64,000 nucleotides of DNA, from assembly GCF_003353065.1 (NCBI RefSeq), contig NZ_CP027806.1, positions 3,678,501 through 3,742,500 on the forward strand, written 5' to 3'. The notes below the pieces were generated by a model. That model was not told the origin of the DNA. It worked only from the letters and a program-made list of their open reading frames with translations, and made no database searches. Positions 16,482 through 63,196 of this stretch are shown piece after piece. The DNA comes from Cyclonatronum proteinivorum (GTDB lineage: Bacteria > Bacteroidota > Rhodothermia > Balneolales > Cyclonatronaceae). The stretch's first letter is position 1. Each line of letters opens with the position of its first letter. The translations under genes and the position numbers were made by a program.

Positions 16482-17058
16482 TAATTCTTCGAACTGACAG
16501 AACCAGCTTTGCAACCCAAAAGCCCAGCTACCCTGCCAATCAAGGCTTCTGTTATTTTAGGGGAAAACTCCGAGAGCATCACGGTCTGCAATGCTGGTTC
16601 GAGACATCCCAAATCGGTCTCATTGCTCCTTGCTTTTTGATGCAGGCGAACTGTGCAAATCAAACCCGTCCCATTTTTGAACGGGATTTTAAGGATTAAC
16701 AAGATAGCATCGGGCCCGGAACATGCCCCGAATCCGTAGGGGCGTACCCTTGTGGTCGCCCCACGAAGGCCGGAATTAAAACCGGAATCGTGAATTGCGA
16801 ATCGCGCCCAAGACTGCCCCGCGTGCCCCACGTTTTTGAACAGGATTTTTAGGATTTACAGAATAAACAAGATGAAATGCATGGCATCCCGATTTCAACC
16901 CGCCCCGACGCCAATACCAGCGACCAGCCGCGTAGCGGTGACATCTTTGTAGTAAACCCGGCGTTCCGTGCTATCCGCAAACACCGGCATGCACATGGCG
17001 TACCTACGGCACGCTGATTTTGTGGGGGCCGACCGGTTTTCTACCCACATGCTGCCCC
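16482..17058. repeat. repeat-rich intergenic region left of the IS element
   Basis: Besides copy A of the structured repeat, this region holds two copies (16675-16705, 16832-16873) of a GAACAGGATTTTTAGGATTT-type repeat, inverted relative to those near 12.2-12.4 kb. It also holds a GTAGGGGCG...GGTCGCCCC module (16735-16764), and one copy (16906-16953) of a CCAGCCGCGTAGCGGTG repeat that recurs on the far side of the IS at 19121-19167. No credible gene was seen. Confidence 0.7.
16527..16638 (+). repeat. copy A of a dispersed ~110-bp structured repeat
   Basis: Core GGGGAAAACTCCGAGAGCAT at 16560, preceded by a hairpin (AAGCC/GGCTT) and T-rich tract and followed by TCCC and TTGCTTTTT. Internal pairings: GGGA/TCCC, CCGaGA/TCaCGG, GCAATG/CATTGC and GAGAC/GTCTC. 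Other copies lie at 23433 (opposite strand), 42664 and 63083. It follows the Gfo/Idh gene in the same orientation. Confidence 0.7.
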
Positions 17059-17198
17059 TACAGGGCACTGGAGTTTGGCTTTTGCTTGTATTTTTGAGTT
17101 TTTCGTAAAAAAATCCCGGTCTATGATGCATATGACCGGATTTTTTAGGATATTATTGTCTAGTTATATCACTAGATTATTCTTAAATCCTACCGCAT

Positions 17199-17417
17199 AT
17201 GGGCTATCCTACCAAAATTCAACGCATCGACCGCAAAGCCAGCCAGCAGTGGTATGTCAATATGCCTGCCGCCGTGGCTGAAGCTATGGAATTCCAAAAA
17301 GGCGAAACCATCGAATGGATCATCGATGACCAGCAGCATATGGTTCTTAAGCGCGACGCCAAACTCGTCAGCAGCCTTAAAAAAAACTGCCTCAAACGCG
17401 CTGACAAGCCAGTTTGA
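17199..17417 (+). CDS. AbrB/SpoVT-like small protein encoded by the IS
   Basis: 72 residues: MGYPTKIQRIDRKASQQWYV, then 'NMPAAVAEAMEFQKGETIEWIIDDQQHMVLKRD'. The pattern of a swapped-hairpin AbrB-type DNA-binding fold is visible (W-Y-V-N-x-P ... F-x-K-G-E-x-I-E-W). It ends within the IS, overlapping the open frame of the transposase. An A8 run (17379-17386) lies near its 3' end, where a shift into the transposase frame would make a fusion protein. Comparable AbrB-like modules precede some IS4-like transposases. It may help bind the ends or regulate the promoter; this is inference. Confidence 0.7.
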   Translation: MGYPTKIQRIDRKASQQWYVNMPAAVAEAMEFQKGETIEWIIDDQQHMVLKRDAKLVSSLKKNCLKRADKPV

Positions 17418-17460
17418 CAGCCTGCTCCACGAATCCACTCACAGTAAACTGACGCCCAAA

Positions 17461-18834
17461 ATGCAAAGACTGGTACACGATCTTGCCTACGGTCTGGTTA
17501 ATTGTGGCGGTAAGCGCACGCTCACAGGCATGCTGAGCGGTAGCGGCAACCAGTTCTGTGACTGGACGGCCGCTTACCGGATGTTCAGCAAGCAGCGCTT
17601 TGACCCGCAGGACCTGCTGGATGTCAGCCTGCGCCACGGGGTCAGCCTGGCGCCTGACAACGCTCCGGTCATTGCCCATATCGACGATACCCTGCTGAAA
17701 AAAACAGGACGCAAAGTACATGGTGCGAAATGGCAGCGAGACCCGCTTGGACCCGCTTTCCACACCAATTTTATCTGGGCACAGCGCTTTGTACAGGCCA
17801 GTATCGCCTGCCCGGCCTCTTCGCAGCTTTGTCAGGCACGGAGTATACCGGTGAGTTTTGTCCATGCGCCCATGCCGGTTAAACCCGGCCGTAATGCGGA
17901 TCAGCTGCAAAAGGACGCTTACAAAGAAGCTAAAAAGAAAAGCAGGATAAGCTGTGTTGGCGCAAAGCTGGTGGGTTCATTGCGCCAGCGCCTCAACGAG
18001 TTGGGATCAGCCTCACGTCACCTGCTTGTAAGTTTTGATGGGGGGTATACCAATCGCGAAGTAATCCAAAACTTGCCGGCGCATACAACCTTCATCGGCA
18101 GGGTCCGCAAAGACGCTAAAATCTATGATCCACCTGCTGACCAGCCTGACACAGGGCGGCGGCGCTTGTACGGGGAGCCTAAGTTAACTCCGGACCAGAT
18201 TCGTACCAGTGATCAGGTAAGCTGGCAGAAGGTCAAAGCTTTCGCGGCAGGCAAGGAGCACGAGTTTAAATTAAAGGTAGTAGAAAACGTTAAGTGGAAG
18301 CCTGCGGGCGGGCACCAGCTACTCAAGCTTATTATTATCAGTCCTCTTGGGTACCGCTTGGCTAAAGGGGCGAACCTGTTGTACCGTAAACCCGCCTTTC
18401 TGATAACCAATGACCTGAAGTTACCGCTGCAAACCCTGCTTCAGGCTTATGTTTGGCGCTGGGAGATTGAAGTCAACTTTCGAGAGCAGAAAACCCTGAT
18501 GGGCTGCGGGCAGGCACAGGTGCGCAACCAGCACTCCGCCGAAGGTGTACCTAAGTTTGTTACAGCGGTGTACAGTCTGTTACTGCTTGCCGCTGAACAC
18601 TGCAGCAGGCAGAATGATCCACCGGTCCAAATGCTGCAACGTGCCAAGTGGTACCCCGAGAAAGAAAACAGTAGGTGGACGACAGGAGACATTTGTAACC
18701 GCTTCAGGGCGGAATACTACAGCAAAGCCATAGGGGTGAGTTTTGACGGCTTCATGAACAAAAGGTACCGAAAGCAGAACCACCTAAAACTGCTAAACCC
18801 GGCTTTATCGGCCATGATTAGCATCAGAACTTAG
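17461..18834 (+). CDS. IS4-family DDE transposase
   Basis: The ATG at 17461 (MQRLVHDLAYGLVNCGGKRT) gives 457 residues; the frame is open back to 17254, so a start further upstream or a frameshift from the AbrB-like ORF is possible. Catalytic residues, numbered in the 526-residue open frame: first Asp in 'IAHIDDTLLKKTG' (144/145), second in 'LLVSFDGGYTNREV' (262), and the YREK box Y399, R402, E406, K413 in 'AYVWRWEIEVNFREQK', an exact Y-2-R-3-E-6-K. The frame is intact with no stops, so the element could be active. The stop codon abuts the right terminal repeat. Confidence 0.9.
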   Translation: MQRLVHDLAYGLVNCGGKRTLTGMLSGSGNQFCDWTAAYRMFSKQRFDPQDLLDVSLRHGVSLAPDNAPVIAHIDDTLLKKTGRKVHGAKWQRDPLGPAFHTNFIWAQRFVQASIACPASSQLCQARSIPVSFVHAPMPVKPGRNADQLQKDAYKEAKKKSRISCVGAKLVGSLRQRLNELGSASRHLLVSFDGGYTNREVIQNLPAHTTFIGRVRKDAKIYDPPADQPDTGRRRLYGEPKLTPDQIRTSDQVSWQKVKAFAAGKEHEFKLKVVENVKWKPAGGHQLLKLIIISPLGYRLAKGANLLYRKPAFLITNDLKLPLQTLLQAYVWRWEIEVNFREQKTLMGCGQAQVRNQHSAEGVPKFVTAVYSLLLLAAEHCSRQNDPPVQMLQRAKWYPEKENSRWTTGDICNRFRAEYYSKAIGVSFDGFMNKRYRKQNHLKLLNPALSAMISIRT

Positions 18835-18854
18835 CCAAACTCCAGTGCCCTGTA

Positions 18855-19245
18855 AGGGCAGGGTCTTGTTCTGATCATCTTTCGGTGTGGAACGGTTCGT
18901 TCCGGCACAATAGCAACATCCATGATATGCCGCCCTTTCAGGGCTGATTGTGTTGGTTTGCGCCTGACACAGGGTTGGCACCCTGTGCTATGATATTTCG
19001 CCCTTACAGGGCTACAGGGCTGGAACGGTGATGGTAATTGTTACCTGGCTGCGTATCGGCATCGGCGCAAATCCGCTGGTTCGGGATCATGTCCGTCAAG
19101 GAACGCGTACCGGACGTGTACCGATGCCAATGCTAACACCCAGCCGCGTAGCGGTGCATTCTTCATAGAAATCGCATTTCGCCACCCCCATTAACCCGGG
19201 CGTACAGCCCGCAATAAACCCGCTATAGACGCGCGTAGTGACGCT
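18855..19245. repeat. repeat-rich intergenic region right of the IS element
   Basis: It contains several short hairpins of the GCCCTTnCAGGGC type (GCCCTTTCAGGGC, GCCCTTACAGGGC), an ACAGGGTtggcACCCTGT hairpin, and a second copy (19121-19167) of the CCAGCCGCGTAGCGGTG repeat in the same orientation as that at 16906. There is no gene. The IS seems to have landed inside an existing repeat cluster. Confidence 0.65.
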
Positions 19246-19683
19246 AAATTTTGCGTCATTCACAAATGTGAGCGCTATGAGATAAAGGGTAAAGACCTGC
19301 TATAAGGGAGCGTGAAATATTACCTGAATGATCTTGCCTTCAAAAATTATATGTTTCCGGGAGTACATCTTGGATGGGGACATCTCATGGAAAATCTTGT
19401 TTTCATTGAATTGCTGGCAAGGGGCTACACCATCTACACCGGTCAGTACCGTAATAAAGAAGTTGATTTTGTTATTCAGCGTGGTGATGAAGTCCAATAC
19501 CTTCAGGTTGCCTGGCAACTTACCGATGAAGCAACCCATACCCGTGAATATGCTTCCTTACTAAGCATTCAGGATGCCCATCCGAAAAGTGTTATTTCAG
19601 CGGATGACCTGGCGCTTGCTCCATATAAAGGAGTACCGAACCTGCTATACTGGGACACCTTCTCGGGTAATGTTTCACTTTAA
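19246..19683 (+). pseudogene. DUF4143 ATPase remnant with in-frame stop
   Basis: Reading frame 1 from 19246 gives KFCVIHKCERYEIKGKDLL, a TAA at 19303-19305, then GSVKYYLNDLAFKNYMFPGV...; this matches the continuous DUF4143 motif 'RYDIKGK.LL....KYYLND', so the stop breaks a conserved segment. The open part (19312-19683, GTG start) keeps the C-terminal nuclease-like domain: 'LMENLVFIELLARGYTIYTGQYRNKEVDFVIQRGDEVQYLQV'. The P-loop half is missing; upstream DNA is repeat sequence. It is most likely a dead fragment truncated by repeat or IS activity. A functional relative ends at 805. Confidence 0.85.
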
Positions 19684-19698
19684 GGAGACGCGCACCCT

Positions 19699-21150
19699 TC
19701 ACACAATCCGGTCCGGATCGCTTAGATCCGGCAGCGGGCCGCGGTAGCCGAAAATGCGTTTGAGCCATTTCACGAGGCCGACGCTTTGGTTTTTGATGTA
19801 CCACTGATCGGCGGCGCGGCGGGCGCCCAGGGCGTAGGTCGGATACGGAAAAATGGTATCGGCCATATTGCGCAGGGTGAGGCCGTTGCGCATGGCAAGG
19901 GCAAACTGCCCGATCAGGTCGCCGGCGTGTGCACCCAGGATATCGGCGGCCAGGATTTTGCCGCTGAACTTTTTCGCATACACATAAATCCAGCCGGTCG
20001 TGACTCCATCGGTGATGGCACGGTCATTTTTTTTGTAGGGAAAGCGGTAGGTTTCGTAGCGTGTACCGGCTGCGTCGAGCTCGGCTTTGGTCGGGCCCAG
20101 GTGCGCGATCTCGGGATCGGTGTACGTGGCCCAGGGTACGTGGCGGGCGTCGATTTTCATCGGCACTTTAAGGAGCATGTTGGTGACCGCAACCTTGGCC
20201 ATGTGTTCGCTCATGTGCGTGAACTGAAACCGCCCGGTGACATCGCCCGCCGCGTAGATGTGCCGCTGATTGGTACGGCAGCGGTCATTGACGCTAATCC
20301 CTGATTTCGTAACGTGCACCCCCGCCTGCCCGAGACCTAAGGTTTCCGTATTGGGCTGTCTTCCGGCAGCAACAAGAAGTTTTGCGGCGCTCAGTGTCTT
20401 TGTGCTTCCGTCCGCACAGCTAATGCTGACCATAATTCGCCTGTCATCCCCGCTTACCGACTGAATACTTCGGTTCAGATAAAAACGGACGCCTTCTTTT
20501 TCCATCTCATTCCGAAGCATGCCCGCAAACTCAGGCAGATCCTTGCCCAGAATTTCGTTGGCCCTATCCACGACCGTGACCTGCGTGCCGAGCCGCTGAA
20601 AGGCCTGCGCCATTTCGGTTCCGATGGGTCCGCCCCCAATGATGATCATACTTTCGGGCAGCTCACGCAGCTCAAAAAGGCTATGATTGGTGAGATAAGG
20701 CGTTTCATCGAGGCCGGAGATGGGCGGCACCATGGCCCGGCTTCCGGTTGCAATCAGAAAATAACGGCTCGTGATTTCGCGGCTGTTGCCGTCAGGCTGT
20801 TTCAGGGTCAGGCTGTGCGGTCCGGTGAAAACGGCCGTCCCAAAAGCCACTTCAACACCCATTTTGCGGAAAATATCAGGATGATCGGCGTCTTCGTACA
20901 CTTCATCCCGGATGTAATCGAGCGTTTGCCGGACTTCCGCCCAATCCGCTTTTCTTCCGCGGATTTTCGCTTTTTTGGCAAGGTTCAGCATGATTTTGCT
21001 GGGTACGCAGCCGTACCAGGTGCAATCGCCGCCGAGCCGGTCGCGCTCAATCATCAGGGTTTTGGCGCCAAAACCCGCGCCCATGCCGGAGGAAGTCAGC
21101 CCGGCAGCGCCGCCGCCGATGACGATGAGGTCGTATTCGTATGTTGGCAT
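19699..21150 (-). CDS. pyridine nucleotide-disulfide oxidoreductase (mercuric reductase-like, no Hg-binding tail)
   Basis: 483 residues. FAD-binding '[15 protein letters not shown]', a redox-active disulfide '[13 protein letters not shown]' (Cys43 and Cys48), NAD(P) site '[21 protein letters not shown]', and '[30 protein letters not shown]'. The C-terminal dimer domain has '[15 protein letters not shown]' but ends '[20 protein letters not shown]', lacking the His-x4-Glu of lipoamide dehydrogenase and the Cys-Cys pair of mercuric reductase. So neither function can be given; a thiol or quinone reductase is possible. It is convergent with the DUF4143 remnant (15 bp between ends) and lies downstream of no operon partner. 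Confidence 0.88.
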
Positions 21151-21241
21151 GGTTGAGATTTTGGATTAAAATAATTACTAAAAAACTTGACCAACAAGGC
21201 CCCAAAACAAATTTAGAACTGAATTTTATAGAAAATGATGT

Positions 21242-21748
21242 TTAGGTATCCAATAATAGCGCTGCAATAGTCTTCATTGGAAGAAACATTTTCACGCTGT
21301 CAGCCAGGTCAATAAAGCCGTATTTCAGATAAAAGCTTCGGGCAGCTTCATCAATAGGATCTACAATTACAGCCATCGATCCGATCGATTTAGAAGCAAC
21401 GTAGCTACGCTTTAAGGCATCCAGCAATAGACGCTCACCGAGTCGCTCTCCATCATATCTTTTGTCACGAGCCAATCTACCAAGTAAGGTAACCGGAAGC
21501 GCAGTATAGGAAGGCGGCATTTTCTTTATCACTTCAATTGGAAGAAGTTCTTTTTGAATGCCTGCATTTGAGAGGGTATAATAACCCTTGATCTCGTTAT
21601 GACTATTCACTATCACAAAACAAGCTGCTAACTTCCGCTTCATATCTTGATTAGCCTGTTTATGCAAGTATTGACTTAACTGACCTTGACTACAATCAAA
21701 CTTGTCTTTGATATGTTTTGTGGTTAGTAGCTCAGTAAGATAAGTCAT
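21242..21748 (-). CDS. GNAT acetyltransferase toxin (TacT/AtaT-like)
   Basis: 168 residues. GNAT core: 'FVIVNSHNEIKGYYTLSNAGIQ', 'VTLLGRLARDKRYDGERLGERLLLDALKRSYVASKSIGSMAVIVDP', and 'EAARSFYLKYGFIDL', with the acetyl-CoA loop RYDGERLGERL and the C-terminal Tyr in FYLKYGF. The N-terminus 'KFDCSQGQLSQYLHKQANQDMKRKLAACFV' matches toxins that acetylate aminoacyl-tRNA in DUF1778-GNAT modules. The start overlaps the upstream antitoxin by 4 bp (ATGA), a typical toxin-antitoxin arrangement. Visibly AT-rich against its neighbours, suggesting transfer. Confidence 0.88.
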   Translation of the reverse strand: MTYLTELLTTKHIKDKFDCSQGQLSQYLHKQANQDMKRKLAACFVIVNSHNEIKGYYTLSNAGIQKELLPIEVIKKMPPSYTALPVTLLGRLARDKRYDGERLGERLLLDALKRSYVASKSIGSMAVIVDPIDEAARSFYLKYGFIDLADSVKMFLPMKTIAALLLDT

Positions 21749-22026: not shown

Positions 22027-22055
22027 TTGATCTCAAATATTTATTCTCGTTTAAT

Positions 22056-22076
22056 TGTACGCACAATATACGTACA
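22056..22076 (-). promoter_or_regulatory. operator candidate of the DUF1778-GNAT pair
   Basis: Inverted repeat TGTACG / CGTACA with a 9-bp AT spacer, 30-50 bp upstream of the antitoxin ATG and overlapping a TATATTGT promoter-like box on the minus strand. The position fits autorepression. Confidence 0.5.
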
Positions 22077-22140
22077 TTGCTTTTTAAAAAACAGCAAATC
22101 TAAAAAAATTATCAGCTTTTCGGATCACAACCGATCTAAA

Positions 22141-22500: not shown

Positions 22501-22673
22501 CAATAACCTCCTCGTTCTGAAAAGATGGATTTACGATAATCTTAATTTTTTTCTTAACGTAATGATACCACAAAACGCCCTTATAGTTCTTAGCTGATTT
22601 CAGACAGAACTTCAGCGAATACAATAAATTAACACCATTCAACTGAAACAGCCGCTTCTACAAATTTGTATGT

Positions 22674-23367: not shown

Positions 23368-23371
23368 TTAG

Positions 23372-23564
23372 CCCGCAAAACGCCGGTGTTAACACAGGTC
23401 CAGGGTCAGGACTCGCGGCTGGTCTATATCCCAAAAAGCAAGGGATTCATCTTTGACTTGGGAGCTCAGAAGCTGCCACGTAAGCATTGATGTTCTCGGA
23501 GTTTTACCTAAAAAAAACAAGCACGTATACGCAGACAGCCGGTTGCAGGGCTGCCCTGTTGGTA
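23372..23564. other. intergenic remainder beyond MITE copy 1
   Basis: Apart from repeat copy D it holds a short coding-like stretch (LVYIPKSKGFIFDLG... then a stop at about 23488) without start or context; it may be a relic. Nothing else was seen. Confidence 0.4.
23433..23536 (-). repeat. copy D of the dispersed structured repeat
   Basis: On the minus strand it reads T8, AGGTAAAACTCCGAGAACAT, ..., CCCTTGCTTTTTGG, matching copies A-C end to end. It begins about 29 bp past the stop of the BASS transporter gene and has the same orientation as that gene. Confidence 0.65.
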
Positions 23565-24455
23565 TTACGTGAGCTCGAGTTCCGGCTTTGGTCTATCGGG
23601 CCGGATGAATTTGTTTCCGAGGAAGATGACGAGCACCGCGGAGCCGTACATGAGGATGCCGTACATGGCTACGGGGATGACCATCACGGGGTTTTGGAGG
23701 AGAGTTGCGGCGATCATGATGCCCATGGTGCCGTTTTGGATGCCGCTTTCTATGGCTACGGTGAGCCGCTGCCGGGCCGATAGTCCGAAGGCGAGTGCGA
23801 GGGCAAAACCGGCGGACATGGTTACCGCGTTGAGGGTGAGCACGGCCGGACCGGTTTGCACGAAAAAGACGGGCAGGTTTTCGCGCTCTTTTATGAGGGC
23901 TGCAATGACGATGAGGGTGAAGAATACCGCGGAAATGATTTTGACAGGCCGCTCGGCATTTTTAGAGAAGACGGGGTTTTTGCGGCGGATGAACATCCCG
24001 ATGGCGACCGGAATGAGGGTTACGCCCATTATTTGCACGATGGTTCGCAGCACCGGCAGGGTGACGCTGCCTTCCTCGCCAAACCAGCCGATGGAGAGGT
24101 TCACGATGAGCGGGATGGTGATGATGGTGACGAGCGAGCTCACGGCAGTAAGGCTGATCGATAGGGCAAGATCGCCCCGCGCAAGGTGCGAAACGAGGTT
24201 AGAAGTAGGTCCGCCGGGACAGGCCGCGATAATCATGAGGCCGACGGCAAGCGCACCAGTGAGACCGAAGAGTTTTACCAGAAGGAAGCCCACAATGGGC
24301 AGCAAAATGAGCTGCGCGCCGAGCCCTACAATCGCCGCTTTGGGTGCGGTAGCAATACGGCGGAAATCATCCGGGCGCAGGGAGAGGCCCATCCCCATCA
24401 TAATGAAGGCAAGGGCAAGCGGCAGGAAAACCGCGGTGAGAATACTGGATTCCAT
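23565..24455 (-). CDS. BASS-family (bile acid:sodium symporter-like) transporter
   Basis: The ATG at 24455 gives about 296 residues (MESSILTAVFLPLALAFIMM...); a GTG 15 codons upstream is open but lacks support. Ten hydrophobic helices are visible. BASS motifs: 'MGMGLSLRPDDFRRIATAPKA', 'IIAACPGGPTSNLVSHLARGDLALSISLTAVSSLVTIITIPL' (the GGxxSN sodium-site loop), and 'ESGIQNGTMGIMIAATLL'. It probably moves an organic anion into the cell with sodium; the substrate is not known. Repeat copy D lies just after its stop. Confidence 0.88.
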   Translation of the reverse strand: MESSILTAVFLPLALAFIMMGMGLSLRPDDFRRIATAPKAAIVGLGAQLILLPIVGFLLVKLFGLTGALAVGLMIIAACPGGPTSNLVSHLARGDLALSISLTAVSSLVTIITIPLIVNLSIGWFGEEGSVTLPVLRTIVQIMGVTLIPVAIGMFIRRKNPVFSKNAERPVKIISAVFFTLIVIAALIKERENLPVFFVQTGPAVLTLNAVTMSAGFALALAFGLSARQRLTVAIESGIQNGTMGIMIAATLLQNPVMVIPVAMYGILMYGSAVLVIFLGNKFIRPDRPKPELELT

Positions 24456-25092
24456 CTGTGTGCGAGTAAGTTTGAAATTTGGCTTCCGCGAAAATAGCAC
24501 AAGCGGCTACAAGGATGAAATCTTAAGTTAGGAGAAGATAACCTGCCCTTTACACAGCCTTAACAGTTGGGAAATATACAGGCCTTAGATTGATGGTGCA
24601 TTGAAGATCAGAATCAGCTATCACGCCTATCATTCTGTGTGGCAGCTGGTTCCTAACCGTAAAGTTGGTTTCGTGACAGGTATCGATAGGGAGCAATGCT
24701 CCAATTAACGACCTCAAACAATCCTCAAAAGCCCGTCGGTCTGCCAGCCGGGGGGCTTGTTTTTTGGATTCCCGATTTTACGAGCCTGTCATGCAAAATC
24801 AGGATTTTGCACTGCGAATACAACTATTGCATATCCATCTATGAAAAATGCCCTAACGTTTCAGGTACTTTCATAAGAAACAGTCGCTTACCAAACGCAC
24901 TGTATTGGTTTTCGTGATGGTACTTCTGAGCTTTATAAGTCACGGATACAAACGCTGTTCACGCTTGGGATGAGGTTTTCACCTTTCACATCAAATGAGT
25001 TCAACAGGTCCGTTTAGGCCCATAATGTATTTGAATTGTCCCTGATACTAACATCTAACACATCGATCTAACACTAATCAACATCCGAATTT
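24456..25092. other. intergenic region, 637 bp, with an orphan terminator
   Basis: No credible ORF. A terminator-like hairpin at 24729-24765 points in the + direction although no + strand gene precedes it, so a small RNA ending there is conceivable. GGAGC-AAT-GCTCC (about 24690-24702) is a second small hairpin. The promoter of the LpxH-like gene should be in the last 100 bp. Confidence 0.45.
24729..24765 (+). terminator. orphan rho-independent terminator
   Basis: Arms AAGCCC / GGGCTT with an inner CGG/CCG pairing, followed by GTTTTTT. No annotated + strand gene lies upstream within the window for more than 1.5 kb. Confidence 0.6.
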
Positions 25093-36380: not shown

Positions 36381-36504
36381 TTCGGGAAGGATGTTGGATT
36401 AAAAGGCGGTCATCGGTTACCGGCACCCACGGAAAGGGATCGGCCCGGCACTTTTGATTTGAAGCAGGCAGGGGAACGGGCAAGGGGCGCATCCCCCGAA
36501 AAAA

Positions 36505-39397: not shown

Positions 39398-42300
39398 TTA
39401 TTTGATCAGGGTCATTTTTCGGGTGAGAACCTGTCCGCCGGTTTGCAGACGGTACAGGTACACGCCGCTCGCAAGGCGGGTTGCGTCAAAATTGAGCGTG
39501 TAAGTACCCGGCTGCATCACTTCATCAACAAGCAATGCAACACGCTGACCAAGCAGGTTGAAGACCTCCAGGGTTACCTGTCCCGTTTCCGGTACGGCGT
39601 AGCGGATGTTTGTTGTAGGGTTGAAGGGGTTCGGATAGTTCTGACTCAACTCGGCCTGTGTCGGAAGTTCGGAGCGGGTTTCCGGTTCAATGTTGGTCGG
39701 ATCGCTGATGGAGAACCATGGGGTGTGGAAGGGGCCGCCTTCAACAGTGCCGAAATCAGCATTGTATCCGAAGTTTTGGAAGGCATCAGCTGTACCATTG
39801 GCGTCGCCGGGCAGAAGCACGTTGGAGAAATAGCCTGTTCCCGATACGATAAAGGCAAAGGCACGGAAGCGTCCGCCGCTCACGCCAAGATCAGCGAGGG
39901 CAACCGCGAATTCGACCCCGTGATTGGCTTCGCCATCATTAAGCATCGCATAGCGGATACTGTTGGCCGGGAACAAACCGTCTTCAGCCGGACCCGTGCC
40001 TGTTGCTCCGTTACCACCAGGACTCGCTGAAGCCGGGAGTACCAGCTTGCCGAGCTTTTCATCACCGGTATAATCGGCAACTGACATCAGCACGCGGTTT
40101 TGTGCACCGATCCAGGCAAAGCCGAAATCAACTTCAAAGTCCATTTTGAAGGCCTGATTAACCGGATTCGGCGGATTCAGGAAGGAGACCGCACCTTCGG
40201 CACCGCCCAGCGGTGTGCCGGCCGGCAAGCCCTGCACCTCTTCGAAATCAAGAAAGATCCCGATACCATCGGCATCACCGAGCACCATTTCGGATTCGAT
40301 AGCAATATAAAGCGAATCTGAGTCCGCGAAATACCACAACGCGCGGACATCTTTGCCGGGCCCGAAACCAGCGTTATCGTTTTCCTTTTCAGCCATCAGA
40401 ATGTACTGCGGCTCGTTGATGACCCCGTCAATGCGGAAAGCGGTAGCTTCGTTGGGATCAACTACTTCGAATACAATTTCCAGAAGATTATCAGACGGGT
40501 CGCTGTCATCTTCAAAATCAATCTCCGCTACAGCCGTGTAGGTGCCGGGTAGCAGCAGCTCAAATCCTTCGAAAACCGCCTCGTTTGTTACGCCGGAACC
40601 GATCTGCGGGATGGTAATCGCATCGGCATAGACTACCTCGTTGCCTGATAGCACTGTAAAGGTAAGGCCAATGTTTTGCTGCGAGAACAGACTCTCATTT
40701 GTAAAGCTCACCCGCGGGGTGATGGTTTCTTCAATGAAGCGGGTGCCTGTCGGGCTCACGATTTCATTCAGCGCGATATTGGCCGGCGGCAGCTCGAGAC
40801 TGTATTCAACCGGTACAAAAATATGATAGCTTGATGGCTTGGTTTTAATACGCGCACGTCCGTCTTCAAACACTTCAATCGTACCATCAAAGTTACCGGT
40901 GAGGTCATACAGGGTGCGCTCGGGCCACTGTGTATCAACCCATACATCAATTTCGAATGAAGAGTGCTTGTTAATGGCAACGATCAGGCCGGTGTCGCCG
41001 CCGGTTCCGCTACGTTCCGCAATATAGACGTGCCGCGGATCTTCATCCGGATTGCCGGGGAAAAAGGGATTGCCGCCGCCATCGCCTGGACGCGTAAGCG
41101 CGCGGTAGCTGCCGCCGCCCAACTGATTGCGCACCTGAAGCAGCAGGTTGATTTCATCGCGCAAACCGTAATTAAAGTAATCGCGGTACCAAACCTGCGC
41201 ATAGCCGGGATGGGTTAGCATGTGGGCGTAAGCCAGCATTTTGTTGTTCACAACCGGGCTGTGACCGGGTGCTGTTACCGAGCCGGTGTAATCTGTGCGG
41301 TCGAAATCATGGTTATCCACAAAAAACACAATTTGCTCAAAAGGCACGCCAAACACATTGTGCAGACCGGCATTGTGCCAGTTCCGGATATCGTAATTAT
41401 CGCCGCCATCGCTCATGGCTTTATAGGCAAAACGCATATTGAAGTCGAAAATCGCACCGGGCTTGCTCGGTGGCGGGGAAGGACTGAATGGCGAATTGGT
41501 CGTATTCAGCATTTCCAGATACGCCAGTTTGCGTCCGATATCACCGTCGAAGAGCTCATGCACATGAAATTTTCCCTGCATGGCACCAAAATTCATAAAT
41601 GACTTGAAATATTCGGGATGAACGCCCTTCACGAAGTCAAAGCGGTAGCCATCCAGGCCAAGGGTATTGGTGAGCCAGTCACCCCAAACCTTCAGACTGT
41701 CGCCAACCGGCAGACTCTGCCCCGAACCCGTATGCAGTGCATTGGTGTACCCAAACTCATTCACATACATCTGATGAAAACCCGCCAACTGACTGCCGCT
41801 CAGGAAATCAGCGGTGTTGCTCTGATTGTGCACCGCATTCGGGAAAAAGAATTCGTTACCTTCCCCTACCGGCCAGCCGATACGACCTGACCCATGTGTT
41901 AGGGGGAAAGCCGTGAAGGTCGAATCCCCGTCGGGACTGAACAGCGAGCCGCCGTTGCGGTCCGTGTAAAACTCACCGTAAATATTGGGCTCCAGGTTTC
42001 CACCCGAGCGGTGATTAAGCACAATATCGGCATAGACCTTGAGTCCATTCGCCTTAAGGCGCTCTATCGCAAACTGAAGGTTCTCAAGGGTTCCGTATCT
42101 GGTCGGGATAAAAGCGCCTGTACCGGAAGTCTGATCACCGGCACGGCTGTCAAAGTTACCCAGATCATAGTAGTCATACGGGGTGTAACCGACATCGAAT
42201 CCGCCCGCAGCTCCTTTACTTGGCGGCGGCAGCCAAATGCTGTTGAACCCGGCAAGACCAAGAAGGTCCGCATTTACAGCCAGCGAGTCATACCAAACGC

Positions 42301-42412
42301 CGCCTGGCGTAACGTCCCAGTAGAAACCCTGCATCATGGTCCGGTCCTGCTGCGCTTGCGCAGCACCCGACACAATCAAAGTGAAAACAAAAAGTAACAG
42401 GTATTTTTTCAT
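39398..42412 (-). CDS. secreted GH13 alpha-amylase with C-terminal sorting domain
   Basis: 1004 residues: signal peptide (1-20, ...SGAAQAQ), a GH13 TIM barrel, a beta-domain (to about 480), CARDB/invasin-like and DOMON-like beta-sandwich modules ('AFRIDGVINEPQYILMAEKENDNAGFGPGKDVRALWYFADSDSLYIAIES'), and a C-terminal sorting domain from 'LPTQAELSQNYPNPFNPTTN' to 'RKMTLIK'. Catalytic regions: 'YADIVLNHR' (about 128-135), 'GYRFDFVKG' with nucleophile Asp259, 'KFHVHELFD' with acid/base Glu286, and 'FVDNHDFDR' with Asp369. It cleaves alpha-1,4-glucans outside the cell, probably after type IX-like export. The promoter carries a LacI-type operator, so sugar-dependent control is likely. Confidence 0.93.
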   Translation of the reverse strand: MKKYLLLFVFTLIVSGAAQAQQDRTMMQGFYWDVTPGGVWYDSLAVNADLLGLAGFNSIWLPPPSKGAAGGFDVGYTPYDYYDLGNFDSRAGDQTSGTGAFIPTRYGTLENLQFAIERLKANGLKVYADIVLNHRSGGNLEPNIYGEFYTDRNGGSLFSPDGDSTFTAFPLTHGSGRIGWPVGEGNEFFFPNAVHNQSNTADFLSGSQLAGFHQMYVNEFGYTNALHTGSGQSLPVGDSLKVWGDWLTNTLGLDGYRFDFVKGVHPEYFKSFMNFGAMQGKFHVHELFDGDIGRKLAYLEMLNTTNSPFSPSPPPSKPGAIFDFNMRFAYKAMSDGGDNYDIRNWHNAGLHNVFGVPFEQIVFFVDNHDFDRTDYTGSVTAPGHSPVVNNKMLAYAHMLTHPGYAQVWYRDYFNYGLRDEINLLLQVRNQLGGGSYRALTRPGDGGGNPFFPGNPDEDPRHVYIAERSGTGGDTGLIVAINKHSSFEIDVWVDTQWPERTLYDLTGNFDGTIEVFEDGRARIKTKPSSYHIFVPVEYSLELPPANIALNEIVSPTGTRFIEETITPRVSFTNESLFSQQNIGLTFTVLSGNEVVYADAITIPQIGSGVTNEAVFEGFELLLPGTYTAVAEIDFEDDSDPSDNLLEIVFEVVDPNEATAFRIDGVINEPQYILMAEKENDNAGFGPGKDVRALWYFADSDSLYIAIESEMVLGDADGIGIFLDFEEVQGLPAGTPLGGAEGAVSFLNPPNPVNQAFKMDFEVDFGFAWIGAQNRVLMSVADYTGDEKLGKLVLPASASPGGNGATGTGPAEDGLFPANSIRYAMLNDGEANHGVEFAVALADLGVSGGRFRAFAFIVSGTGYFSNVLLPGDANGTADAFQNFGYNADFGTVEGGPFHTPWFSISDPTNIEPETRSELPTQAELSQNYPNPFNPTTNIRYAVPETGQVTLEVFNLLGQRVALLVDEVMQPGTYTLNFDATRLASGVYLYRLQTGGQVLTRKMTLIK

Positions 42413-42663: not shown

Positions 42664-42769
42664 GCTTGCGTATCAGGTCCTTGTTTTATTTTTTGGGGAA
42701 ACTCCGAGAAAATCAATGTTGTCGAGGGAGGACTTGAGTCCCCAAACCTAAGATAGGTCCATTGCTTTT
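42664..42769 (+). repeat. copy B of the dispersed structured repeat
   Basis: Core GGGGAAACTCCGAGAAAATC at 42695, T-rich tract before it, TCCCC at 42739-42743 and TTGCTTTTGG at the end. Pairings: GGGGA/TCCCC, CAATG/CATTG, GGACT/AGTCC, ACCT/AGGT, and upstream CGCAAGC/GCTTGCG. It lies 283 bp from the amylase ATG. Confidence 0.7.
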
Positions 42770-42868
42770 GGGGAGGCCTTCAACAATAAACCCATGTGTT
42801 CAACATGCGCTATAGCAAAAAATGGCTTAAACTTTCTGTTAATTCGGATAAACCCACTCATTTTTACG

Positions 42869-43336
42869 CTACTGCTTGATCCGAAAATCGAACTTAAGGG
42901 GAATTACCGACACAACAGTTATACTTCGCGCGTCCGGGTGAAGGGGGTTGATGAGATAGTTGAATGATGCCGGAACAATGGCACTTGGTACTTTCAGGAC
43001 AGCCGCGCCCTGTTGCATTACAAAATCGTCCCCGATAAGCTGGGTCTCAGATGTCGGAGGCTTGGCGTCCCAAGTGTCCGGCAGATTATCCGGATTTAGC
43101 ACCTGAACAGAAACCGAATCAGGAATTTCTATTTCGACATAAACACGGTCGGTCGGTAAATCTTCGCTGATGTCGAGGTGCACGGAAATTTCAAGCAACG
43201 CAAGCGCACGGCTTTCAGAAGTGTACACAAGACGCGTGTAAAGGCTGTTCCACCTAAAACCTGAAGACCGCGCAGCTCCTATGCCCTGCAGAGTCGTTTC
43301 GAGATACTTTTTCCGCTCAACCCGAAATACGCGCAT
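42869..43336 (-). CDS. RES-domain toxin
   Basis: 155 residues. RES pattern: 'MRVFRVERKKYLETTLQGIGAARSSGFRWNSLYTRLVYTSESRALALLEISVHL', with the conserved Arg-...-Tyr-...-Glu triad (R in VFRV, Y in RLVYTSES, E in LLEISVH) and a final 'AVLKVPSAIVPASFNYLINPLHPDARSITV'. RES toxins degrade NAD+ by phosphorolysis. It lies 3 bp downstream of the Xre/MbcA-ParS-type antitoxin, the usual gene order. It is complete at about family length. Whether it is active here is inferred. Confidence 0.9.
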   Translation of the reverse strand: MRVFRVERKKYLETTLQGIGAARSSGFRWNSLYTRLVYTSESRALALLEISVHLDISEDLPTDRVYVEIEIPDSVSVQVLNPDNLPDTWDAKPPTSETQLIGDDFVMQQGAAVLKVPSAIVPASFNYLINPLHPDARSITVVSVIPLKFDFRIKQ

Positions 43337-53622: not shown

Positions 53623-53628
53623 CCGCTA

Positions 53629-58052: not shown

Positions 58053-58075
58053 GGATTCTGAAAAATTAAACAAAT

Positions 58076-58101
58076 GGGAAGGGCATCTGCACGCCCTTCC
58101 C
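58076..58101 (-). promoter_or_regulatory. hairpin inside the surface operon
   Basis: GGGAAGGGC / GCCCTTCCC stem in the 75-bp gap between the 58128 stop and the 58052 ATG; on the minus strand it is followed by ATTTGTTTAATTTTT. It may be an attenuator or an RNA processing site. Confidence 0.6.
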
Positions 58102-58127
58102 GTTGAAGTGTAAAGCTGTTGCTGCGT

Positions 58128-60599
58128 TTATTTAACGAGCATCATTTTCCGTGTAGATACGAAGTTACCGGCGTCAATGCGGTAAATGTAGGTACCGCTT
58201 GCCAGTCGTGAAGCGTCAAAGTTGATGATGTACTGACCGGCAGCCTGATGTTCGTTCACGAGCATAGCTACGCGACGGCCAAGTATGTCATATACAGACA
58301 GCGTCACATTTGTAGCTTCGGCCAGATTGTAGCGAATGTTGGTTGTGGGGTTGAACGGATTCGGATAGTTCTGGTCAAGCGAGAACTCGTTCGGACGCTC
58401 ACCCGGCTCCGTGCTTGTCGCACCAAGATCAAAGTCAGTGATGAAGCGCGGAACCATCTGAAGGGTACCGTTGAAATTACCCACGATAGCCGTCAGGGTG
58501 AATTCACCTTCCGGGATATCAAGACCAATGTAATCGGATTCAGGGAAATTGGTACGCAGAATAACAGTTTGGTCTTCACCCAGTGAAGGATCTGTAATCT
58601 GATAATTGGTACCGCCTTCAAACGCTCCTTCTGCCCCAACAAAGCTTACGTTAGGGATACGAACCAGCATGGATTCATTTTCAGTAACTGTAATGTCTGC
58701 AAGGCTGAATGTTGGCGGCACGAAATCAATATTTCCAACAGGTCCGCCGGGATCTGTAGCCGGGCGGAACTGAACGGTTCCCTGGAAAACACTCAGGTCA
58801 CCACGTACGTTAGACATCAGGTCACCAATAGCGTAGAATTCGGTAATCCGACCAGGCGCGTCATCGATGAGAATCGCTCCGGTTTCATCCTGAATGTATT
58901 TCTGATTTCTTGCTGTACGCCAGTAGGTTACAACAGCCTCACCAGTGTACTCGTAAAGTGTTCCGTCACGATCACCACCGCGAAGGCCTGCGAGCGTAGC
59001 AAACTCCTCGATTGCCACCTCTACTTCGTAGGTACGCTCGTTTACAGGGCTGTTTTCAACACCTGATACCGCTGCAATAGCTTTGATGGTTGTTGTTTGC
59101 TCAACCAGTATAGGTGCGGTGTAAAGCGGAGAATCCGTGGTAGGATCAGAACCATCCATAGTGAAGTAAATGGCGGCCTCTTCATCAGGAGAAGAAAGGC
59201 TGACTTCTACAAAGTTGATGTACTCACCAGCGGCAGGACTGAATACCGGCGGAAATGCCTGTGTTGCTGACTCGATAAAGATGGTGTCGCTAACCGTTGA
59301 AGCGGTTTCAATGCCCTCAGGAGTCGTTGTTACGACGCGAATGCTGAAATCAACAACATCAAAGGCGTCGAAAGAGCCGATTCCGGCACTAAAGGTGTTC
59401 CCGGCCGGGGTCATTTCCACAGTAATTTCATCAGCGGTATCAGCTGTGTACGGGCGGGCCGTATAGGTCAGGGTTACGCTGTTGAGGGTGTAGTCATCTT
59501 CAGGGAGGATGACATCAACAGAAATATCAACCGCCTGACCTGCAAGTGCTGGCTGTGGGAAAGTCAGGTTTTCAACGATGGGTGCAAAGCCGAGTACGAC
59601 CAGATCATTCGGCCATCCCGGAGGCGCAACACGGTCGTCAGGATTGTCACCATCGTTAATCCACACAAAACCGTCTTCAAAAGGATTAATACGAAGCGTT
59701 CGCGCTGTGGGAGACACGTCAATGTTATCAGGGTCAAATGTGTTTACCACAACAAAACCTGACCAGTCAACTACGGCACCTGCAGGCGGGGGAACATAAG
59801 GTCCGTCTACGGCAGGTCTGCGGTAGTTGTAGCCGCGTCCTTCACCAGTCTCTGGATCAAAAGCATAGTTGTCTCTGTCGTTACGAAAGCGTAAGGAGAT
59901 ATCGGTGGTTTGCGCCACAACGCCGTCAGCTGAACCAATAAACCGGGGACGGCCCGTTTCAGCTTCAAAACGGCTGATGATCTCCGCGCCTTCAATACGC
60001 ACATACTGACTAATAAAACGGCTGTAATTATTCACATTCCAGGTGAACTGTCCGTTGCCGGCAGGGCTGTTCAAATCAGAAAGCGGAATGGTGCGGGGCT
60101 GAAGCAATGCATCAAGACCTTCGTATTCAGGATCAATGAACACATTGCCAAGCGGGGTGACGAGCGAAGGATCGAACTGAACTACGATACCCTGGAAGAA
60201 TGTCAGGGTACCTTCAACGCGAACCACATCACCGCGAACCAGGTTCTCGAGGGTTTCACGCTGATCGCCGCCTTCTACAATGTGCATGGCCATACCATCA
60301 CGCCCCATATCCAGACCATTGATGTCTTCCACAAAAACGTGAATACGACCGGGCAGGTTGGCCTCTGTTGCGCTGGCAAATCCGGAGGATTTCGGGTAGG
60401 AAACTACAACGGCCTCGAATACAACCGGCACGCCGGTAAGCGGATGGCTGTCGAGGTCTTCAAAGCTTGTAAGGGGAGTCGGATATTCGTTAAGCTCGCG
60501 AATGATCACTTCCTGAGGACCATTCTGCGCCATAACATCCGTAAAGAGGAGAGCAGCTGTTAGCAATACAAACAGTGCCAGTTGTAAATGTTTAGTCAT
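58128..60599 (-). CDS. secreted protein with OB-like, chitobiase-like and C-terminal sorting domains
   Basis: The ATG at 60599 gives signal peptide MTKHLQLALFVLLTAALLFT...; about 823 residues. Two OB-fold-like DUF5689-type regions are seen ('VPVVFEAVVVSYPKSSGF...GDVVRVEGTLTFFQGIVVQFDP' and 'YTGEAVVTYWRTARNQKYIQDETGAILIDDAPG...RGDLSVFQGTVQF'), separated by an Ig-like module and a chitobiase/hexosaminidase C-terminal-type domain ('VEVSLSSPDEEAAIYFTMDGSDPTTDSPLYTAPILVEQTTTIKAIA'). The end is a type IX-like sorting domain ('LDQNYPNPFNPTTNIRYNLAEATNVTLSVYDILGRRVAMLVNEHQAAG ... KMMLVK'). It is an exported surface protein; the ligand is unknown. Confidence 0.85.
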   Translation of the reverse strand: MTKHLQLALFVLLTAALLFTDVMAQNGPQEVIIRELNEYPTPLTSFEDLDSHPLTGVPVVFEAVVVSYPKSSGFASATEANLPGRIHVFVEDINGLDMGRDGMAMHIVEGGDQRETLENLVRGDVVRVEGTLTFFQGIVVQFDPSLVTPLGNVFIDPEYEGLDALLQPRTIPLSDLNSPAGNGQFTWNVNNYSRFISQYVRIEGAEIISRFEAETGRPRFIGSADGVVAQTTDISLRFRNDRDNYAFDPETGEGRGYNYRRPAVDGPYVPPPAGAVVDWSGFVVVNTFDPDNIDVSPTARTLRINPFEDGFVWINDGDNPDDRVAPPGWPNDLVVLGFAPIVENLTFPQPALAGQAVDISVDVILPEDDYTLNSVTLTYTARPYTADTADEITVEMTPAGNTFSAGIGSFDAFDVVDFSIRVVTTTPEGIETASTVSDTIFIESATQAFPPVFSPAAGEYINFVEVSLSSPDEEAAIYFTMDGSDPTTDSPLYTAPILVEQTTTIKAIAAVSGVENSPVNERTYEVEVAIEEFATLAGLRGGDRDGTLYEYTGEAVVTYWRTARNQKYIQDETGAILIDDAPGRITEFYAIGDLMSNVRGDLSVFQGTVQFRPATDPGGPVGNIDFVPPTFSLADITVTENESMLVRIPNVSFVGAEGAFEGGTNYQITDPSLGEDQTVILRTNFPESDYIGLDIPEGEFTLTAIVGNFNGTLQMVPRFITDFDLGATSTEPGERPNEFSLDQNYPNPFNPTTNIRYNLAEATNVTLSVYDILGRRVAMLVNEHQAAGQYIINFDASRLASGTYIYRIDAGNFVSTRKMMLVK

Positions 60600-60728
60600 A
60601 ATACTGTTGAGGTTTTGGTTGGTGTGTTCACAGTATGATGTTTGGCTCACCTGGCAAAAAACGCCAAAGCCCGGGTTTGGGAAGATCCCTGTGATAAATC
60701 TCCCCTCCCACTTTCATATAAAATGCTG

Positions 60729-62831
60729 TCAGCGGATAATAGCAAACCGGCCGCGCTGCACATGGCCCGACTCGCGATCCCGCACAGTATATAGATAAAG
60801 TCCGGTTGAAAGGTTCTGATTGGCTGCCGAGAGCAAATCCCAGGCATGTTCGCCACCGGGCATCAGACGCTCGCCCGAAGCAAAATCTCGGAACCAGCGG
60901 GTGTCGCCCTGATAGGTGGCTGCGTCGTGCTGAAGGGTTGCGACAATTTCACCTGCAAGGGTGTACACGCGCACTTCGGCACGTGCGGGTAGGTTGTAGA
61001 ACATGATTTTCCGCGTGAAGGGCGTCCCGCCGTCCCAGGCCGCATTTACGCGGTAGGGATTGGGATATACCCCAACCTTAAATTCAGGATCACTATTTCT
61101 GAAATCCGGATTTGGCGCTGTACCCGGGAATACCCGCACAGCGTTGGCGTTAATGGATGATTCAAGCGGCGGCGATTCGCCATCACCGGCATCGAAGGCG
61201 GTTACGGCAAACAGATACTGCCAGCCGCTCAGCATGCCCGTTACATCAAAACGATAGTGATACTCAACCGGGTCATCTGGGAATGTCACCGGTTCAGGCA
61301 GGCGGATTTCATCAAAACCGGTTCCGAAACCCGCACCGCTCTCGGGCAGGTCCCACTCGCGTATCATCTGTGCCGAGGTGGAAATTGTACCCCGAAGATC
61401 ATCGCCAAGCTGAGAGCGGTACAGGCGGTAGCCTGCAAAGTCTTCTTCGCCTGAAACCGGGTCAATTGAAAATTCAGCGCGGTTATCCCAGTAAATGCTT
61501 GCAACGCCTGCGTCGAGTTCCACGCGGATACGCGGCACATCCGGCGGCTCGGGAACGAGAAAGCGGGTTCGGGTGCCATCGGGGTTTTCCTGACCATCAA
61601 ACAGACGGAAAGCCCAGTCAATGTTTTCGGCAAGAAGCGAGCGGCTTTCTTCATTATCCAGCTGATTCACATCATTCACCTGACCCGGCACCAGCCCCTG
61701 AAATTCAGGCGGCATAAGCGCGGTCACAAAAGCGATGTACACACTGATCGTTTCACCGGGCTCAACTTCCGGGAATGGGCCTATAGTGTTGAGCTGTATA
61801 TAGTTACCGTTGGCAAAGAAGCCGTCATTACGCAGGGCTTCGCGGTTTTGATCAATAGGCCAAACGGTCTGCATGCGCTCAAAACGCTCCAGATCATTCG
61901 AAGGGCGGGAGAAATCACCCGTTCCGGCGCCAAACAGCCAGAAATCAGGGCTCACGTGCGGCACCGGAAGTCCGGCAGCTTCAATTTCATCAGCCCTGCG
62001 CGGATGAAACTCAACCCCGCGATACTCGGACCCCAAAATTACCGAAGCGGCATAGGTATTGATTCGGGGCTGATCAAAAGAACCCCGGTCGAAAACGTAA
62101 AGGGCATACTGATCATCCAGCCATCCCAATCCGCCCTTGTTAAAAAAGTCTGAGCCGGTTTCAACGGTTGTATTTACGTTGCGGACAACCATGTCAGAAT
62201 AAATGCTGAAATAAAACTCATCCCAGACTTCACCATTTGGATTGCCCGACCAAATGTTCGAATTATTAGTAATGTCGTATCTGACAATGGAGATTCCTTC
62301 CGTGAAACCAAAATTCCAGTTGTAGGTCTCGAACCGGATGTCGGCATAGAGCGGATTTTCGTGTCCCGGTACCGGACGGTTGTTGCGAACCGTACGCCGG
62401 TCAGAAAATTCAGCCACAAGATCCTGATGGCTGACGGCAGACGGGCTGAAATTCGGACTGTCGCTCAGCGAAGAGCGCTCTGTAAACAGGGTTCCGTCAT
62501 TGGTAAACTCAAAACCGGCTACATTCTCGTTATAACCCGCCGCATTGGTAACCGATGAAGTTGAAACCCGGGTCTGACCGTCCACACGTGCACCAAGCCA
62601 GATTCCCGCTTCGAAAAGGTGCTCGGTACCGGAACCTCTCGGAAACTCCATGCTGGGCAGGCCCACCGGCTGATTCCGCACATTAGGTCGCCCAACCGTA
62701 CCCACATTCGAATAGGAAATGCCAAGATTACTCACGGTTACAGCACGGCGCTCAAAGACCTGTTGTGCCGAAGCCATCTCATAAAAAAACAAAAAGATAA
62801 AAAGGGCAAATAGTAGCCTGATAACGTTCAT
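60729..62831 (-). CDS. secreted surface protein with C-terminal sorting-like domain; first gene of the operon
   Basis: 700 residues with signal peptide MNVIRLLFALFIFLFFYEMASAQ. The body has repeated beta-sandwich patterns ('FEAGIWLGARVDGQTRVSTSSV', 'YNWNFGFTEGISIVRYDITNNSN', 'AGYRLYRSQLGDDLRGTIS...YRFDVTGMLSGWQYLFAVTAFDAGDGESPPLESS') consistent with FN3 or Ig-like modules. The end 'EFKVGVYPNPYRVNAAWDGG...MFYNLPARAEVRVYTLAGEIVATLQHD...LSTGLYLYTVRDRESGHVQRGRFAIIR' is a FlgD-type/type IX sorting-like C-domain. No enzyme motif was seen. It leads the minus-strand six-gene set; a TACCTTTG box lies 96 bp upstream of its ATG. Confidence 0.8.
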   Translation of the reverse strand: MNVIRLLFALFIFLFFYEMASAQQVFERRAVTVSNLGISYSNVGTVGRPNVRNQPVGLPSMEFPRGSGTEHLFEAGIWLGARVDGQTRVSTSSVTNAAGYNENVAGFEFTNDGTLFTERSSLSDSPNFSPSAVSHQDLVAEFSDRRTVRNNRPVPGHENPLYADIRFETYNWNFGFTEGISIVRYDITNNSNIWSGNPNGEVWDEFYFSIYSDMVVRNVNTTVETGSDFFNKGGLGWLDDQYALYVFDRGSFDQPRINTYAASVILGSEYRGVEFHPRRADEIEAAGLPVPHVSPDFWLFGAGTGDFSRPSNDLERFERMQTVWPIDQNREALRNDGFFANGNYIQLNTIGPFPEVEPGETISVYIAFVTALMPPEFQGLVPGQVNDVNQLDNEESRSLLAENIDWAFRLFDGQENPDGTRTRFLVPEPPDVPRIRVELDAGVASIYWDNRAEFSIDPVSGEEDFAGYRLYRSQLGDDLRGTISTSAQMIREWDLPESGAGFGTGFDEIRLPEPVTFPDDPVEYHYRFDVTGMLSGWQYLFAVTAFDAGDGESPPLESSINANAVRVFPGTAPNPDFRNSDPEFKVGVYPNPYRVNAAWDGGTPFTRKIMFYNLPARAEVRVYTLAGEIVATLQHDAATYQGDTRWFRDFASGERLMPGGEHAWDLLSAANQNLSTGLYLYTVRDRESGHVQRGRFAIIR

Positions 62832-62926
62832 TCAACCAATAATAAATAGATGGATAGCTTAAAATTCCGACCTGATTGATGTTTTAGAGAACATCTGTAG
62901 CACTTGCACTACATCCGATGACAGTC

Positions 62927-62934
62927 CAAAGGTA
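62927..62934 (-). promoter_or_regulatory. -7 box (TACCTTTG) of the surface operon
   Basis: On the minus strand TACCTTTG matches TAnnTTTG perfectly, 96 bp upstream of the ATG at 62831. I saw no clean -33 element. Confidence 0.45.
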
Positions 62935-63002
62935 TCGCTATTCTTTTCAATATGGAATGCATCCTCGTGCATTTTACAATATAATAACTTGCGCGCTAAA
63001 AT

Positions 63003-63016
63003 GGGAAGCGCTTTCA
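63003..63016 (-). promoter_or_regulatory. second AAGCGCTTTC operator-like site
   Basis: Minus strand TGAAAGCGCTTCCC, with the same orientation and following ATTTTA as the amylase operator, 172 bp upstream of the operon ATG. Confidence 0.45.
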
Positions 63017-63082
63017 GACCCTGCATTCTTTTATAAAACAGCCTGTACGTCGCCCATTAAGTTTTCACTTTGGTCGGCTGAA

Positions 63083-63196
63083 GCTTATGCCACAGGTATT
63101 TCCGGCTGTGTTTTTTTTGGGGGAAACTCCGTGAACATCACGGTCTTTCGTGGTAATACTGTCCCCGCAGCCCTAAGATCAACCCCTTGCTTTTTT
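63083..63196 (+). repeat. copy C of the dispersed structured repeat
   Basis: Core GGGGGAAACTCCGTGAACAT at 63119, an upstream CACAG/CTGTG hairpin and T8 tract, TCCCC then CTAAGAT, and TTGCTTTTTTGG at the end. CCGTGA/TCACGG forms a perfect 6-bp inner stem. It lies 289 bp from the operon ATG and 156 bp before DUF3098. Confidence 0.7.

Follow-up and report, generated by a model that had tools for sequence, protein, structure and literature searches.

Repetitive extragenic palindromic (REP) sequences and bacterial interspersed mosaic elements (BIMEs) are short, multi-copy, species-restricted and mosaic repeats into which IS110-family insertion sequences (IS) such as IS621, ISPa11 and ISPpu9/10 insert; a REP has a short hairpin with a tetranucleotide on the 5' side of the hairpin foot, and frequently a Y1 partner (TnpA-REP) (PMC1525189). 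IS200/IS605 elements excise from the lagging-strand template and insert into it, and tetranucleotides next to their ends act as guides (PMC6006769). We analyzed a 64-kb stretch of DNA (the window; positions 3678501-3742500) from the single-contig, 4.29-Mb genome of Cyclonatronum proteinivorum (G000), where a first-pass annotation had marked four copies of a dispersed repeat. This repeat belongs to a large lineage-specific family with a species-specific, replication-polar core. The polarity, its most important feature, is invisible within the 64 kb alone.

The repeat is non-coding and measures about 90 bp from a T-tract to a 3' T-run, with the layout T-tract, GGGGGAAACTCCGTGAACATCA, a mosaic middle containing CCCAAA, and then TTGCTTTTT. 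Direct reading and alignment bore out the four annotated copies with their common core and TTGCTTTT end, the aligned segments being the T-tract, GGGGAAAACTCCG(A/T)GA(A/G)CATCA, a variable middle, CCCAAA, and TTGCTTTT. The core form GGGGGAAACTCCGTGAACATCACGG has TCCC and CTCA variants. Of 182 copies genome-wide, 177 had a T-tract of 6-15 bases, and the tract was often broken by one A; CATCA and TTGC were almost invariant, and the middle was a mosaic in which a small set of modules recurred in numerous combinations. The core start lay 59-63 bases from the 3' TTG in 167 of these 182 copies, which leaves no space for a gene inside the repeat. The 5' tetramer and the 3' triplet ahead of TTG covaried (p 5e-11), mainly CTCA with GCG, as expected of matched transposon ends. 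A weaker motif, CCTGNRMC, was found about 30 bases ahead of the tract in 41 of 167 copies, compared to 4 of 167 in a control window. The copies occupy spacers directly behind T-tracts, often past the 3' end of a gene.

The description as a four-copy repeat proved far too small, as the genome holds about 224 copies: 182 from the first lists and 42 from patterns with other bases at core position 1 or 2. The 15-base core pattern ACTCCGNGANNATCA occurred at 113 exact places in the whole genome and its reversed control at none, and a model built from 30 copies gave at least 150 matches, all with E <= 3.3e-12 (150 of 1855 first-look candidates scored); a chance origin is thus excluded. The copy table includes 110 of the 113 exact places. 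Overlapping rows were merged, six chance-looking places were dropped (470340, 481862, 899677, 1912255, 2764479, and 4274964), and three doubtful rows were kept: 2133997, 1471990, and 1401712, the last a likely chance match that is counted as a CTCCGT lagging-type copy. The true number is probably higher than about 224, because CTT- and CTCA-type cores were covered only in part.

Replication polarity of the core

Copies were classed by their direction relative to the replication fork, the CTCCGT core lying on the lagging-strand template in leading-type copies and the reverse arrangement being lagging-type. GC skew over 0.70 Mb of sampled stretches split best at 0.33-0.35 and 2.30 Mb, and these boundaries are reported first because an origin and terminus fitted to the repeat itself would be circular. 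With them, CTCCGT cores were 79 lagging-type to 2 leading-type (n=81). Other boundaries gave 78:3 (repeat-fitted), 74:7 (a skewed octamer), and 72:9 (dnaA as origin). Two of the three CTCC exceptions under repeat-fitted boundaries lay at the presumed terminus (2465136 and 2510467), and the third had the unusual flank GGGTAGA. Cores with T at position 1 leaned the opposite way, with 4 lagging-type and 28 leading-type copies (n=32, GC-skew boundaries). In the GTGAAC group, CTCC cores were divided 62:3 (lagging:leading) and other tetramers 8:27 (Fisher 4e-14), and TCCC cores of the GTGARC group 0:10.

When 74 alignment columns and features were tested, the strongest ties to orientation fell on core positions 1, 2, 6, and 3 and on positions -4 and -3. 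Where the two ends lay 61 or 62 bases apart (148 copies), leading-type copies had about 4-6 times the diversity of lagging-type copies at core positions 1-4 (0.35 and 0.46 versus 0.06 and 0.12), and the CATCA and TTGC segments and the mosaic middle showed little difference in diversity between the two types. Within a near-identical subfamily of 17 copies, core positions 1-6 had a mean diversity of 0.38 (leading-type) and 0.14 (lagging-type), with 0.05 and 0.10 in the remainder. Orientation was also considered as a stand-in for gene direction, and this was rejected, since the direction of the upstream open reading frame (ORF) failed to separate the orientations (p 0.13).

The one congener carrying the repeat (G005) showed no CTCCGT bias, with 11 leading-type and 12 lagging-type sites in the combined assignment (23 sites, 20 windows; Fisher 1.5e-6 versus the host). 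Orientation there was assigned by synteny (10:9, 4 unassigned), skew (11:12), and the octamer (8:12, 3 unassigned) in 20 windows picked for copies, and the underlying list of 40 sites has some false pattern matches. Among sites shared by both species, four of the five leading-type sites with CTCCGT in the congener, including copy B of the window, were non-CTCCGT in C. proteinivorum, the fifth being a terminus copy. Conversely, three of the four lagging-type sites that were non-CTCCGT in the congener had CTCCGT in C. proteinivorum, and of four lagging-type sites with CTCCGT in the congener two were unchanged and two had CTCCGA. Although these numbers are small, the cores at old shared sites differ in the direction predicted by their orientation.

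This dependence on fork direction suggests some reading or policing of the repeat while the chromosome is replicated. In bacteria, strand asymmetry generally shows up in the direction of genes or in skewed short oligomers. The present family has copies pointing both ways that are distinguished chiefly by six core bases. With the unbiased sister species serving as control, this single genome and its many natural replicates offer a direct test bed for fork polarity readers.

Two further observations concern the strands of this chromosome. The octamer GCCGGTGC was strongly strand-skewed outside the repeat in the sampled host stretches (100:12 or 94:18, by boundary pair), which makes it a candidate of the kind of FtsK-orienting polar sequences (KOPS) or Chi. 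The dnaA gene lies at 691, yet GC skew and repeat polarity put the origin near 0.33-0.39 Mb.

Proposed mobility, inheritance and alternative readings

Across the order, 128 genomes were searched under stricter filters, with 32 candidates scored in each; two of them, C. proteinivorum and G005, matched at E <= 0.001. At E <= 0.01 the latter had 92 matching places and nine other near relatives searched alongside had none; the bare 15-base core pattern had 0-3 matches in other genomes. Thirteen pairs of places in G005, counted by eye, faced each other (+ then -) within 300 bases. Among 53 host copies with an orthologous junction in the congener, 17 had an element in the same orientation, 2 had one in the opposite orientation, and 34 had none, although copies 827029 and 827251 have one partner in common and the "opposite" match of 3539385 may be spurious. 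On these counts, the family is in part inherited and was in part gained or lost after the two species split. Behind a conserved 516-aa gene, the spacer holds a hairpin, a T-tract and the element in both C. proteinivorum (446 bp) and the congener (334 bp), with hairpin sequences that are quite unlike. The same spacer carried no element in G001 (165 bp) or G003 (9 bp), and the element was also absent at the related locus L240, where the following gene begins within about 20 bp; the G004 contig ends at this place, and the G002 match ends at a contig end, 14 residues before the end of the protein.

A near-identical IS110-family element (99-100% identity) splits the core right after GAGCATCA in five copies, and a comparison of 0.70 Mb of the host genome gave the same five insertions only, all at repeat copies. 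The ORF of one such insertion encodes 368 aa and matches PF01548 and PF02371. The 282-base non-coding lead includes GAGCATCAC, equal to nine target bases; this guide match is suggestive only, because 47 of 2000 shuffles scored equally or better. The IS110-type element is an inserter into repeat copies and no parent of the repeat, and it gives an example from the Balneolota lineage of such an element landing in an interspersed repeat. The first-pass annotation had left a choice between an RNA, a transposon relic and a decayed coding sequence, and part of the relic idea held: many copies, absent sites and a mosaic build favor a mobile repeat, and no parent IS was found. Reverse transcriptase genes, which a group II intron or retron origin would call for, gave no RVT_1 match in either genome. 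The two ends (T-tract GGGG... and ...TTGCTTTTTGGG) look non-inverted in the aligned copies, although no search for terminal inverted repeats was made.

We lean, by a modest margin of belief, toward a lineage-specific, non-coding interspersed DNA repeat that is non-autonomously mobile, in the broad sense of REP, miniature inverted-repeat transposable element (MITE) or BOX, with a core that is read or counter-selected while the fork DNA is single-stranded. The repeat would have spread in the common ancestor of C. proteinivorum and the congener, and later too, and its copies would move and/or undergo processing in single-stranded form at the fork. A CTCCGT core on the lagging-strand template may be a target for cutting or excision, or do harm in some other way; leading-type copies would then survive only with altered cores, and the reverse arrangement would be tolerated. 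HUH/Y1-type nucleases are the candidate enzyme family to suspect first. We put forward more tentatively that the core is strand-coded, with CTCCGT almost only in one fork direction and TCCC, TTTC, or TTCC before GTGARC almost only in the other, and was rewritten within one species. If this is true, hundreds of sites across the genome were edited or policed by a reader coupled to the fork, be it a nuclease, a transposase or a fork-barrier protein.

Several observations weigh against this reading. The 17 shared sites make part of the family old, and a pure insertion bias explains neither the changed cores at shared sites nor the opposite bias of cores with T at position 1. A simple rule that CTCC means lagging-type is broken by CTCCGAGAAC (0 lagging:6 leading) and CTCCGAGAGC (17:6), and non-CTCC cores with GTGCRC were unbiased (10:7). 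No cognate transposase or other enzyme was found for the repeat, the copies established neither a target duplication nor a precise insertion boundary, and some congener sites carry a short T-tract/GGGTGATG repeat instead of the element. Five Y1/IS200-like transposase genes (L320-L324) occur in the host and none in the congener. Their 350-bp flanks hold palindromes of other sequence at L320, L322, and L323 (e.g., ATCCCGAAGGGAT), a long inverted repeat at L321, and a direct-repeat array at L324, where one copy of the roughly 90-bp repeat lies about 0.3 kb off on one side. A partnership of the repeat with the Y1 genes was rejected, as the flanks hold other repeats and the congener has no Y1 gene. 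The presence of these genes in the biased species only is at least compatible with handling of the repeat as single-stranded DNA.

The polarity could instead mark a functional DNA signal, such as a fork-barrier, segregation or recombination site, where a candidate protein reads GGGGAAACTCCGTGA one way and wrong-way copies are selected against. We consider this rather unlikely. The 79:2 split speaks for it, as do the position of two of the three exceptions (element-fitted boundaries) at the presumed terminus and the unusual GGGTAGA flank of the third, the core shifts at shared sites in keeping with orientation (CTCCGT lost at four of five leading-type sites and present in the host at three of four lagging-type sites), and the concentration of orientation-tied columns at -4, -3 and core 1, 2, 3, and 6. 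Against it, the congener is unbiased, the family is confined to two species, and no binding protein is known. A bare polar motif of the KOPS or Chi kind was rejected, the 7-mer CACGGAG being unskewed outside the repeat (28:36); the 8-mer TCACGGAG leaned slightly the other way there (8:16, one boundary pair), and both counts tell against a polar signal. Handling as single-stranded DNA is preferred over a polar protein by a narrow margin, on account of the mobile-element features and the linkage between the end sequences.

Two explanations at the RNA level fared less well. It was considered that the T-tract and the following G-run might be part of a transcription terminator, with the repeat as a post-terminator sequence, an improbable account of the family. 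A stem of dG <= -5 lay ahead of the tract in 85 of 182 copies (47%), compared to 35% in shuffles and 31% in control windows, and behind the 516-aa gene the hairpin directly precedes the T-tract in both species. Moreover, T6GGG outnumbered T6CCC 38 to 9 in the host outside masked copies (a few unlisted copies remaining unmasked) and 61 to 8 in the congener windows, where copies were unmasked. However, about half of the copies lacked such a stem, and a terminator leaves the conserved 80 bp past the tract and the replication polarity unexplained; strict placement behind intrinsic terminators was rejected, the stem excess being only modest.

The paired helices described in the first-pass annotation could point to a structured non-coding RNA or to a 3' element resembling a riboswitch. 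The conserved core, the T-tracts and the frequent position behind genes fit such an element, which we nevertheless regard as highly improbable. The outer GGGG/CCCC and CCGTGA/TCACGG stems could form in 82.5% and 76.7% of cells, respectively, but the test for compensatory change set by that annotation gave none: 0 of 10 pairs of the proposed helices were altered on both sides in 30 copies (shuffled mean 0.9). RNAalifold placed only 2 pairs with zero covariation in 30 aligned copies, and folding energy matched that of dinucleotide shuffles whichever strand was folded (56 copies; z -0.05 sense and -0.31 antisense). The short GGGG-AAA-CTCC stem had lower energy in lagging-type copies (-3.8 versus -2.5) because the core sequence itself differs. 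Rfam gave no match at gathering scores at the four window copies, and a relaxed search of six loci returned, besides a tRNA, only far sub-threshold matches in or near copies, among them AaHKsRNA41 (20.6 bits versus 97) on the hairpin ahead of a congener copy.

Copies and neighboring features in the window

The extents of copies A-D run from the T that opens the T-tract to the bases past the 3' T-run, and the gene context rests on unverified six-frame ORFs. The first-pass annotation placed copies A and D behind gene stops in the gene's own direction, which stood for A; no convincing gene end lies ahead of D, which sits about 280 bp upstream of an ATG at 62831 (-). Copy B, noted there for its distance to a start codon, also follows a gene stop in its own direction. 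Copy C has no convincing gene ending ahead in its own direction and sits between two minus-strand genes. At the site orthologous to copy B, the congener has the element with CTCCGT, compared to CTCCGA in C. proteinivorum.

Coordinates of the repeat copies and neighboring features (window positions)
Feature	Position	Strand	Remarks
Repeat copy A	16552-16641	+	T-tract TTATTTT; core 16567-16581 ACTCCGAGAGCATCA; 3' end CCTTGCTTTTT; lagging-type
Repeat copy B	23430-23520	-	T-tract; core 23488-23502 ACTCCGAGAACATCA; leading-type
Repeat copy C	42681-42772	+	T-tract TTGTTTTATTTTTT; core 42701-42715 ACTCCGAGAAAATCA; lagging-type
Repeat copy D	63111-63199	+	T-tract T8; core 63126-63140 ACTCCGTGAACATCA, the most frequent core of the family; lagging-type
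GFO/IDH/MocA-type oxidoreductase gene	15489-16481	+	stop 70 bp ahead of copy A
SBF (sodium/bile acid symporter family) gene	23565-24500	-	stop about 45 bp ahead of copy B
Por_Secre_tail protein gene	39398-42412	-	one flank of copy C
RES-domain protein gene (Pfam RES)	42869-43336	-	other flank of copy C; presumably the toxin of a RES/Xre pair
Second, shorter repeat, one copy	36490-36504	-	T-tract + CGGGGGATG, directly behind TGA
DDE-type transposase gene	17254-18834
Acido-Lenti-1 RNA (Rfam)	18968-19013	+	E 3e-8; about 130 bp downstream of the DDE-type transposase gene

A second, shorter repeat consists of a T-tract and (A/C)GGG(G/T)GATG, often followed by TTCCGG, with some copies right behind stop codons and some within ORFs. 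Behind T-tracts it occurred at 74 sites in 0.80 Mb of the congener (controls 1 and 3) and at 19 sites in 0.68 Mb of the host (controls 0 and 4). Pattern counts, overlaps included, were 163 in the congener, 54 in the host, 12-31 in four other congeners, 23 in G055, and 24 in G108.

Comparison with described repeats and polar sites

The likeness to IS200/IS605 elements is that a process such as the one described in PMC6006769 could yield replication-polar copies and linked end sequences. Unlike them, the repeat has no conserved subterminal hairpins, no transposase was found for it, and copies occur in both orientations, with cores that differ between the two. The polar orientation that characterizes Ter sites of the Tus/RTP type was seen in C. 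proteinivorum (79:2) and not in the congener. BOX repeats are modular in build, and replication-strand coding of the core is not familiar to us for BOX or RUP repeats; indeed, no repeat described so far is known to us to have a core coded by replication strand. A literature search by title and abstract start, with most subscription papers outside its reach, returned no description of this repeat. BOX and RUP of Streptococcus pneumoniae (PMC3049150) are likewise small dispersed chromosomal repeats, a likeness by description only.

Relative to the REPs of PMC1525189, the repeat is longer, at about 90 bp, and has no conserved hairpin. It is not filed as a REP because compensatory pairs were absent and folding was no better than in shuffles, and because no Y1 gene flanked by copies was found in the host, the congener having no Y1 genes at all. 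It shares with REP/BIME repeats the short, multi-copy, species-restricted and mosaic character and the role of IS110 target, with five insertions at one fixed point. Its nearest kind is therefore the REP/BIME class, including the targeting by IS110-family elements.

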